64,000 nt of DNA. Origin: Candidatus Nitrosopelagicus sp. (GTDB lineage: Archaea > Thermoproteota > Nitrososphaeria > Nitrososphaerales > Nitrosopumilaceae). The DNA is taken from NCBI GenBank assembly GCA_028345965.1, contig JAOMEP010000003.1, forward strand, positions 1 through 64,000, given 5' to 3'. Below, piece after piece: positions 30,733 to 38,100 of this stretch. The notes under the pieces were generated by a model, which saw nothing but the letters and a program-made list of their open reading frames with translations, was not told the origin of the DNA and did not search any database. The position numbers were made by a program, and so were the translations under genes. Positions within the stretch are counted from its first letter, which is position 1, and each line of letters starts with the position of its first letter.

Positions 30733-32142
30733 TTAACACCACTCCCTAACATCAACAAAATGACCAGCAATAGCAGATGCAGCAGCCATGACAGGACTTA
30801 CGAGATGAGTTCTACCGCCAGAACCTTGTCTTCCTTCAAAATTTCTATTAGAAGTACTTGCACAACGTTCACCAGGTTTTAAAATATCAGGATTCATTCC
30901 AAGACACATACTGCAACCAGATTCTCTCCATTCAAAATTTGCATCTTTAAAAATTTTATCTAACCCTAATTTTTCAGCTTCAAGTTTAACCATTTGTGAA
31001 CCTGGAACAACCATTGCACTAACATCAGAATTTACTGTTTTACCCTTTACAATTTCTGCAGCATCTTTCAAATCTTCTAAACGTGCATTAGTACAAGAAC
31101 CAATGAAAACTCTGTCAATTGGAATATCTACAATTGCAGTATCAGGTTTTAAATCCATATACAATAATGCTTTTTTTGCACTTTCGATTTGTATTTCATT
31201 ATTCTGACCAAATTCCTCGGGAGTGGGAATTTTTCCTGTTACATCAGACACCATTGCAGGATTTGTTCCCCAACTTACTTGTGGTTCAATTTTATCCACA
31301 TCAATTATGAAACTTTTATCAAATTTTGAATTAGGATCAGACATAAGATTATTTTTCCAATCGTCAACTAATTCATCATAGTTTTTTGGAGTGTACTTTC
31401 TATTATTGAGATAATCAAATGTCTTTTCATCAGGTGCAATGAGACCCGCTCTAGAACCGGCCTCTATAGACATGTTGCAAATAGTCATTCTTTGTTCCAT
31501 CGATAGATCACTAATTGCATCACCACGATATTCTAATACATGTCCAGTACCACCGTCAGTTCCAATCTGTTTGATAATACTTAGAATTATGTCCTTAGAA
31601 GTTATTGCAAATGAGTTTTTGCGCTTACCTGTTGCTAAAATTTCAAATGTTTTCGGTTTTTCAAGCCAAAGTGTTTGAGTTGCAAGAGTATGTTCAACTT
31701 CACTTGTTCCAATACCAAATGCAAATGCACCAAATGCACCTTGTGTTGATGTATGACTATCACCACATACTATGGTGCTACCAGGTAAAGTGATTCCTAG
31801 TTGAGGTCCTATTACATGAACAATTCCCTGATTAGGATCATTAATTCCAAATAACTTTATTCCAAAATCCTTACAATTTTTTTCTAGAGTTTGTATTTGA
31901 GTTGAAGAAGTTTCATCAATCATTGGTAAACTTCTATCAGTGGTAGGAACATTATGATCAATAGTAGCCACAGTTAAATCTGGACGTCTAACATTTCTCT
32001 GATTAACACGTAATCCATCAAAGGCCTGAGGCGATGTTACTTCATGAATTAGATGACGATCAATGTAAATTAATGAAGGTTCATTTTCTCTTTCAACTAC
32101 GATGTGAGAATTCCAAATTTTCTCAAATAATGTTTCAGTCAT
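30733..32142 (-). CDS. leuC: 3-isopropylmalate dehydratase large subunit, bacterial type
   Basis: [12 protein letters not shown]...[50 protein letters not shown]. Confidence 0.95.
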
Positions 32143-34739: not shown

Positions 34740-36061
34740 CCCATTCCAAGTTTACGAAGCATTCCTTGCATTTGTCTACCTTTAGATGCCTTCATCATTG
34801 TTTTTGAGTTTTTGTAGTTTTTTATTAATTCCTTAACCTCATGTTCAGGCCAACCAGAACCTCGTGCAATTCTTTTAATTCTAGATGAATTAAGTAGATC
34901 AGGATCAGCTTTTTCTTCAGTATTCATACTTTGGATGATGTATCTCCATTTGTCCATTCTTTTTTCCATCACTTCAAGTTGATCTTCTTTTACCATTCCC
35001 GATAATCCAGGCATTGTTTCCATCAAACTTTGAAGAGAACCAACTTTAGTCACTTCTTCTAATTGATAAAAGAAATCTTCCATATTCATTTTACCGCTTG
35101 TAATTCTTTTCATGCGAACTTCATCTGCTTCATTACCAAGTCGTTTTGCAAGATCAAGTACAGCTTGAACATCACCCATACCCAAAAGTCTACCAACAAA
35201 TCTAGTAGGCGAAAACTGTTCTAAATCATCAATTCGTTCACCAGTTCCAACATACATTACTTGTGCACCGGTTGCTGCAGATGCCGCAAGAGCACCACCA
35301 CCTTTTGCTGAACTATCAAGTTTAGTAATTACTATGCCTCCAACAGGAACGATTTTGTTAAATGCTTCTGCTTGTGAAAAACACTGTTGACCAATTGTAC
35401 CATCAATAATTAATAATGCTAAATCAGGATTAGATACTTTTGAAATTTCGGTCATTTCATCCAAAAGATCTTTTTCTTCTTTATGACGTCCAGCAGTATC
35501 AATCAATACTACATCAATATTTGAATTTTCAAAATGTTTTAAACCATTTTTTACAATTTCAGCTGAATCTTTGTTATTTTCTTCACCATAAACTTCAACA
35601 TTAGATTTTTCACAGTTTGTTCTTAATTGAACCAAAGCACCAGGTCTATAGGTATCAGCTCCAATCGCACCAACACGATAACCTTGTTTAGTAAGAAATT
35701 TTGCCAATTTTGATGACACAGTAGTTTTACCACTTCCTTGAATTCCGAGCATCAAAACTTTGTTGATTTTTCCAGATTTGAAATGAAACTCAGTATCATT
35801 ACCTAATAATTTTGATAATTCATCGTACAGAATTTTCACAATATGATCTTTTCTTGATAATCCAGGTGGCGGAGTTTCATTGATGCAACGTTCTTGAAGA
35901 TTTTTTGTAATTTCAAGAACTAATTTTACATTTACATCAGACTGTAAAAGTGAACGTTGAACATCCTTTGCTAATTCTTTGATTAATTCTTCATCTATTC
36001 CAGAAGAGCTAACAATTTTTTTAATTGCGGTTCGTAAACCATCTTTCAGATTATCAAGCAT
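34736..36061 (-). CDS. srp54: Signal recognition particle 54 kDa protein
   Basis: GIQGSGKTTVSSKLA, DTYRPGALVQL, DTAGRHKEE, C-terminal M domain. Confidence 0.97.
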   Translation of the reverse strand: MLDNLKDGLRTAIKKIVSSSGIDEELIKELAKDVQRSLLQSDVNVKLVLEITKNLQERCINETPPPGLSRKDHIVKILYDELSKLLGNDTEFHFKSGKINKVLMLGIQGSGKTTVSSKLAKFLTKQGYRVGAIGADTYRPGALVQLRTNCEKSNVEVYGEENNKDSAEIVKNGLKHFENSNIDVVLIDTAGRHKEEKDLLDEMTEISKVSNPDLALLIIDGTIGQQCFSQAEAFNKIVPVGGIVITKLDSSAKGGGALAASAATGAQVMYVGTGERIDDLEQFSPTRFVGRLLGMGDVQAVLDLAKRLGNEADEVRMKRITSGKMNMEDFFYQLEEVTKVGSLQSLMETMPGLSGMVKEDQLEVMEKRMDKWRYIIQSMNTEEKADPDLLNSSRIKRIARGSGWPEHEVKELIKNYKNSKTMMKASKGRQMQGMLRKLGMG

Positions 36062-36744
36062 TATCTTTTAATTTAGCCTCCAATATTTCAAATCTTCCCC
36101 TATAACCATCCCATTCAGTACTTGAATCTTGAATAAATAATGATTTTTCAAACAATGGACAATTTATTACAAAGGTTTCTGCCTCACCACCTTCAAAATT
36201 TAGATTAAATCTAAATTGTTTTTGTAATTTCTTAAGATCTCCTAATCCATTTTTATCAATTATTTTTCCAAGCCAAGAATCATTCAAACCATCTGAACTC
36301 ACACTAGAAATAATATATTGAAAATTTTCTTTTACTAATTCATCCATATAAGATTCAGGTTTTGTATCCCATAAAGGTGATAAAACTTCTAAATTATTTT
36401 TTGCACAAATTAACGAAAAATTATCCTTTTGATATTTACTTAGAATTCCACCATGAACAATTCCTTCAATAGAGTATTTTTTCTTTTGCAAGAATGATTA
36501 ATTTTTCAAGTCTTTTAAATTCGTCCTTAGGATCAGTAGTTCTAATTTCTTCTATTAATTGTGGAATTTTCATGGATTCAGCTTGTAGTGAAGTGAATTT
36601 TATGTTTGGATAGTGAAGTAAATGGCTTTCACTAGAATGAGGATATAATGTCAATAATACATCAACTGAATGAGATAATTTCTTTGCAAGGTAAATTGCA
36701 TATGTGCTATCTTTTCCACCAGAAAATAATGCAGCTAATTTCAT
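36054..36744 (-). pseudogene. Diphthine-ammonia ligase/Dph6-type ATP pyrophosphatase, split into two frames by frameshift at A6 run
   Basis: N-part MKLAALFSGGKDSTYA... and C-part KYSIEGIVHGGILSKYQ... GGEAETFV are consecutive parts of one family; removing one A at 36477-36482 restores ...LAKEKYSIEG... Confidence 0.8.
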
Positions 36745-36760
36745 TTTAAAATAAAAAATA

Positions 36761-36825
36761 GGATGCCTCAATACTCATAATCTTCATCAGAAATCAGTTG
36801 GCTTTTCCAATCATCATTAGCATCC
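36761..36825 (-). ncRNA. Box C/D guide sRNA (candidate 2); D guide matches elongator tRNA-Met anticodon loop (sR-tMet-like)
   Basis: Reverse strand GGATGC-TA-ATGATGA-TTGGAAAAGCCAA-CTGA-TTTC-TGATGA-AGATTATGAGTA-TTGA-G-GCATCC; C, D', C', D-like boxes plus 6-bp terminal stem; 65 nt. Confidence 0.85.
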
Positions 36826-36828
36826 AAT

Positions 36829-37242
36829 TTAGGATGTTTTAATTCGCATGATTTTAGTTCTTCCCATAACATTCCAATATTCAATATCTTGACCTTGTTC
36901 TAATTTTCCGTCGACTTCTTCGTCAACCATCTGAATATCAACAGTTTCAAATGTTTCTCCATCCATAACTTGAATCTCAGAACCAGTCATTGAAATGATT
37001 TGACCAACTCTTTTGTCAATTAGTGGTACATGAATTTGCATACTTACAGGACCTACATGTGGTCGTTTTGCACCATCAAAAACACCTACTCCAACAATTC
37101 GTGCTTTTGCTGCACCATGTTTTCCAGGCTTACTAGTATCATATTCAGATATTCTACAAGGTTCACCAGTAGGTTGATCACCAACAGGTAATAAAATGTA
37201 AGAACCAATCTTTAATGAACCTAAATCAGAAGGTTTGCTCAT
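36829..37242 (-). CDS. eif5a: Translation initiation factor 5A
   Basis: PCRISEYDTSKPGKHGAAKARIVGVGVFDGAKR hypusine loop. Confidence 0.95.
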   Translation of the reverse strand: MSKPSDLGSLKIGSYILLPVGDQPTGEPCRISEYDTSKPGKHGAAKARIVGVGVFDGAKRPHVGPVSMQIHVPLIDKRVGQIISMTGSEIQVMDGETFETVDIQMVDEEVDGKLEQGQDIEYWNVMGRTKIMRIKTS

Positions 37243-37977: not shown

Positions 37978-38100
37978 CCCCACTTAGCTCAGCCTGGTAG
38001 AGCTTCCGACTGTAGTTGTCGGCTTAGGGCTGAATAACAGTAGTCTACTAGGCATACAGAAATCGGGTTGTCGAAGGCTCAAATCCTTCAGTGGGGACCA
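37978..38100 (+). tRNA. tRNA-Tyr(GTA) with 46-nt intron (38016-38061) at position 37/38 and encoded CCA
   Basis: Acceptor CCCCACT/AGTGGGG, anticodon GTA, anticodon stem TCCGA/TCGGG re-formed after intron removal; exon CTGTA pairs with intron TACAG (bulge-helix-bulge). Confidence 0.93.

Follow-up and report, generated by a model that had tools for sequence, protein, structure and literature searches.

Guides for 2'-O-methylation of C34 in tRNA-Met are, as the original prediction had stated, known in other archaea, namely halophiles and Pyrococcus (PMC2584109; PMC7994747). In halophiles a box C/D sRNA guides Cm34 of elongator tRNA-Met, and the same paper cites Pyrococcus sR49 as a predicted guide for tRNA-Met Cm34 (PMC2584109). 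In humans, SNORD97/SCARNA97 guide Cm34 of elongator tRNA-Met (PMC6601510), and SNORD49A/B guide 28S Cm4456 (PMC9941101). A review of guide RNAs describes archaeal guides as evolving fast and, citing work on Pyrobaculum, mentions tRNA guides in which the second guide lacks a target (PMC7994747). Our search of published papers found no description of the sRNA family reported here.

The window analysed is a stretch of 64,000 nt from a Candidatus Nitrosopelagicus genome, a genus that the original prediction had not identified. On its minus strand, at 36825..36761, lies a 65-nt element that reads GGATGC-TA-ATGATGA-TTGGAAAAGCCAA-CTGA-TTTC-TGATGA-AGATTATGAGTA-TTGA-G-GCATCC, in letter-for-letter agreement with the C/D layout and 6-bp stem (GGATGC/GCATCC) originally proposed for this strand. 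It has the hallmarks of an archaeal box C/D sRNA: C (RUGAUGA) and C' boxes, a terminal stem, and spacers with N+5 targets, the spacers before boxes D and D' being 12 and 13 nt long where about 12 nt is expected. The element is located between the genes for eIF5A and a Dph6-like protein, the latter starting at 36744, and the proposed start of the sRNA 3 nt past the eIF5A stop codon was confirmed on the sequence, with eIF5A identified by Pfam. A search of the window with Rfam returned no family at gathering score for the sRNA; with few exceptions, the matches below that threshold were to box C/D RNAs, placed on the right strand and over the right stretch. The element is very probably a dual 2'-O-methylation guide of the archaeal box C/D type, with one guide predicted to act on C34 of tRNA-Met and the other on the 23S rRNA equivalent of E. 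coli C2510. The features are as follows, where A1 is an alignment of 57 distinct sequences from relatives and R1 the covariance model derived from it.

36829..37242, minus strand: eIF5A gene, 137 aa, upstream of the sRNA (Pfam PF21485 and PF01287)
36761..36825, minus strand: whole box C/D sRNA (sequence; R1, 95 bits)
36820..36825, minus strand: 5' arm of the terminal stem, GGATGC, extended by U36819 (pairing statistics of the stem)
36811..36817, minus strand: C box, ATGATGA (sequence; conserved columns in A1)
36798..36810, minus strand: D' guide region TTGGAAAAGCCAA, within which GGAAAAGCC is invariant; G36802 at -5, predicted to face the 23S C aligned to E. coli C2510 (alignment and complementarity)
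36794..36797, minus strand: D' box, CTGA, invariant (sequence; alignment)
36784..36789, minus strand: C' box, TGATGA, invariant (sequence; alignment)
36772..36783, minus strand: D guide AGATTATGAGTA; G36776 at -5, predicted to face C34 of elongator tRNA-Met (complementarity to relatives' tRNA-Met)
36768..36771, minus strand: D box, TTGA, non-canonical (sequence; family counts)
36761..36766, minus strand: 3' arm of the terminal stem, GCATCC (sequence; stem pairing)
36753..36758, minus strand: run of six Ts just 3' of the sRNA, a possible transcript end (sequence)
36054..36744, minus strand: Dph6-like (Diphthami_syn_2) gene, downstream of the sRNA (Pfam PF01902)

The Dph6-like gene is split in the window by a frameshift near an A6 run, GCAAAAGAAAAAATACTC, and is intact in the relatives G001, G016 and G021; the split may be an assembly error or a real lesion. 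At one locus from another family of the class (L321), the sRNA abuts or overlaps the apparent start of the Dph6-like gene.

The D guide had been proposed to pair with the anticodon arm of elongator tRNA-Met so as to place C34 at the N+5 position, and this was borne out: TACTCATAATCT in sister genomes is an exact 12-nt complement, with C34 facing guide position -5, counted back from the D box. The window's genome bin is 72% complete and lacks an elongator tRNA-Met, and the pairing is accordingly shown in close relatives; the two CAU tRNAs in the bin are, as read from their sequences, an initiator tRNA-Met and an Ile2-like tRNA. The window was rightly said to hold no tRNA-Met. It does hold an intron-containing tRNA at 37978-38097 on the plus strand, which Rfam finds and a default run of ARAGORN missed; considered as the missing tRNA-Met, it was ruled out, as its anticodon reads GTA (Tyr). 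The closed genome of a relative, G001, encodes three CAU tRNAs, the third being an elongator tRNA-Met that is interrupted after position 30 by an intron of some 41 nt; the splice, read by eye from the sequence, leaves CCAGA and UCUGG fully paired. The final base of the intron followed by the exon reads U-ACUCAUAAUCU, the exact complement of the window D guide, which therefore matches 12/12 positions of the precursor and 11/12 of the spliced form. Among the tRNAs of G001 this is the best match of the D guide (12, against 8.5 for the next best tRNA), and none of 400 shuffles of the 10-nt guide core did as well. A genome with an identical eIF5A, G021, carries both the exact window guide and the matching tRNA-Met.

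Across the relatives examined, the elongator tRNA-Met arm matches the guide in every case, over 10-12 nt, and the exon sequence CTCATAATCTGGAGG is nearly invariant in the family. The non-canonical intron at 30/31 is likewise family-wide, its position kept and its length ranging from about 20 to 44 nt (L089:127-242, L100-L121, L211-L240). In a predicted fold, the long form of this intron pairs with the 3' half of exon 1. The guide varies at positions -1 and -12, whereas -2 to -11, which face A31-C40, are largely kept; the conserved target therefore lies wholly in the second tRNA-Met exon and, because the intron is at 30/31, is contiguous both before and after splicing.

The original prediction overlooked what sequence complementarity predicts as a target of the D' guide in 23S rRNA. 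GGAAAAGCC is complementary at every base to GGCUUUUCC, which lies in domain V of the G001 23S rRNA, near the ribosome's catalytic centre, and the N+5 base is a C at position 2618 of that rRNA, aligned to E. coli C2510. Taken alone, the 9-mer is moderately significant, with 9/400 shuffles matching rRNA equally well. The total conservation of the D' guide, GGAAAAGCC being invariant in 57/57 aligned sequences, carries more weight. The D' guide of other families of the class reads GGAAGAGCC, in the same register as SNORD49, and the Rfam SNORD49 consensus AGGAAGUGCCGUC-AGA aligns to GGAAGAGCC in that register. The pairing of GGAAGAGCC with GGCUCUUCC in the 23S rRNA of these families is a putative case of guide/target covariation. 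The human site Cm4456 we take to be E. coli C2510, from the shared guide and the usual numbering rather than from an alignment with human rRNA.

Conservation of the box motifs in relatives, on which the original prediction had staked itself, was found family-wide, together with that of the guides and the position. The same element is present 3' of eIF5A within the genus and in named Nitrosotenuis, Nitrosarchaeum, Nitrosopumilus and Cenarchaeum loci. In the 57-sequence alignment, C', D' and the guide cores are invariant or nearly so, between variable flanks, and covariance, which had been proposed as a check in related genomes, is present in the terminal stem as compensatory changes: the six-pair stem is 98.8% paired with two-sided changes in 4/6 pairs, and a seven-pair stem, completed in the window copy by U36819:G36767, is paired in 99.0% of cells with two-sided changes in 5/7 pairs. 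Sliding the partner strand as a control left 41.6-55.1% of cells paired.

Within the window, R1 scores 95 bits (E 8e-24) at the sRNA and finds nothing comparable elsewhere; a second match of 20 bits at 31322-31379 falls in apparent coding sequence and was judged false. At E <= 0.01, R1 matches 309/400 genomes of the class, including approximately 209 of 221 Nitrosopumilaceae genomes as counted from the table, of which a few matches are weak (for example G015, G102 and G140) and may be other C/D RNAs. It reaches other families of the class more weakly. Among 80 named eIF5A loci, R1 found a match at 61; in these the distance to eIF5A is <=300 nt in 59 and <=10 nt in 48, the stem starting a median of 3 nt after the eIF5A stop. 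In other families, both guides can still be made out in at least 15 of the 24 loci that were read, many of them next to eIF5A on its 3' side. At L327:1500-1575 (G296), R1 weakly matches a second C/D-like RNA, which has GTGAAAAGCCCTACTGA and TAGATCTTGAG stretches. These results show that the guide RNA is deeply conserved, and almost unchanged through the whole family.

The D box had been called non-canonical, with U in place of C, and this description extends beyond the window copy: in the 57 family sequences the box is UUGA in 41, AUGA in 13, GCGA in two and GUGA in one, and CUGA is absent. The U retains a possible U.G pair with box C in the kink-turn. CUGA does occur as D box in several loci that, by an inferred family name, are Nitrososphaeraceae-like; as none occurs in the family, the non-canonical D box is probably derived and old, not a defect of the window copy.

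The D guide is not kept everywhere, and it has decayed in one clade of the genus. Three genomes (G026, G027 and G028; L051, L054, L056) have a C facing A35 where the window guide has U, and the guide of G002 (L053) is 2 nt short; D' is intact in all four. One might therefore suppose that this is a real box C/D sRNA whose main role is at the 23S site through D', the tRNA-Met guide being secondary or lost in some lineages. The D' guide is indeed invariant in 57/57 sequences and its box never departs from CTGA; the D box, by contrast, is degenerate, and the genomes just named have a broken or mismatched D guide. However, the D-guide core GATTATGAG is kept from Nitrosopelagicus to other families, where it is sometimes accompanied by a canonical CUGA D box, and position -2 of the guide is T in 52/57 sequences, which argues against a secondary role. 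We consider this reading unlikely.

It is considerably less likely still that the D guide is aimed at tRNA-Ile2(CAU) instead of, or besides, elongator tRNA-Met. The Ile2-like CAU tRNA of G027 has ACUCAUAAUCG and that of G028 the same arm, both matching the 10-nt guide core; in these two genomes the Ile2-like tRNA shares its ACUCAUAAUC arm with elongator tRNA-Met and would therefore also have been complementary to the ancestral guide. By contrast, the Ile2-like arm in the window's own genome, GGCUCAUAACCG, is complementary to the D guide over only 7 nt, the tRNA-Met arm matches wherever examined, and C34 of archaeal tRNA-Ile2 is agmatidine (PMC7668247). Re-aiming of the guide at C34 of tRNA-Thr(CGU) in the G026-G028 clade is highly improbable: the guide there, CGATTACGAGTG, has 10 nt of complementarity with the tRNA-Thr(CGU) of G001, a relative, but the tRNA-Thr(CGU) of G027, from within the clade, differs in its arm, CGCCTCGTAAGCG, and offers just 7 contiguous pairs, and we rejected the idea on that tRNA. 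That the whole is a chance set of C/D-like motifs in the eIF5A 3' region can be practically dismissed, since, short as such motifs are and common as single ones are in A+T-rich DNA on general grounds, chance is contradicted by class-wide conservation, invariant guides, stem covariation and two targets in N+5 register.

Archaeal box C/D sRNAs form kink-turns at C/D and C'/D' that are bound by L7Ae, Nop5 and fibrillarin, and a dual guide sRNA at this locus would fold and assemble likewise. The D guide would pair with A31-C40 of elongator tRNA-Met, placing the wobble C34 at the fifth nucleotide upstream of box D for conversion to Cm34, and the D' guide would pair with GGCUUUUCC in 23S domain V and direct Cm formation at the E. 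coli C2510 position. Judging by the 3-nt spacing, the eIF5A transcript probably ends in the sRNA, which is then trimmed out. Because the tRNA target is contiguous in the precursor, methylation could precede splicing. The sequences themselves show conservation, stem covariation, complementarity and synteny; assembly of the RNP, both methylations, excision from the eIF5A transcript and action before splicing are steps that we infer. More tentatively, and somewhat short of an even call, a class-wide syntenic sRNA may join decoding and peptide transfer, by Cm34 on unspliced tRNA-Met and a Cm in 23S rRNA at the site served by SNORD49 in humans, from within an eIF5A/Dph6 translation-factor cluster.

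The predicted targets would extend RNA-guided Cm34 of tRNA-Met to the Nitrososphaeria, including abundant marine ammonia oxidisers, and the guide is so well conserved that two specific modifications can be predicted across many species. The degenerate D box and the broken D guides offer natural variants for testing what a guide requires.

Compared with described systems, Cm34 guides for tRNA-Met are the known part; what stands out from the sequences is the deep conservation, the putative dual tRNA/rRNA targeting and the decay of the D guide. One close likeness is to sR-tMet (RF02163), which we take to be the Haloferax volcanii guide of the halophile study cited at the outset: it too is a box C/D guide for Cm34 of elongator tRNA-Met, the role predicted here. 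RF02163 was not among the window matches and reached 15.2 of the 50 bits required (E 1.7) in the Nitrososphaeraceae-like locus L304. The present sRNA differs in that its target tRNA has an intron at 30/31 and that it adjoins eIF5A. Pyrococcus sR49 has the same predicted target, a likeness of description rather than of sequence. SNORD97/SCARNA97 is eukaryotic, and a second, rRNA target is not mentioned in the relevant section of PMC6601510. SNORD49A/B (RF00277) of eukaryotes share the antisense element AGGAAGNGCCGUC, placed ahead of D' and in matching register, linking the archaeal guide to SNORD49 by site as well as by antisense sequence; RF00277 was not among the window matches and gave 22.1 of 37 bits, below gathering score, in L304. 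SNORD49 is a eukaryotic snoRNA without a tRNA-Met guide, whereas the sRNA here has one. Unlike the archaeal guides described in PMC7994747, the present sRNA is slowly evolving and has predicted targets for both arms; if the dual role is true, it stands apart from the rapidly changing guides reported for other archaea and from those of their tRNA guides in which the second arm is idle.
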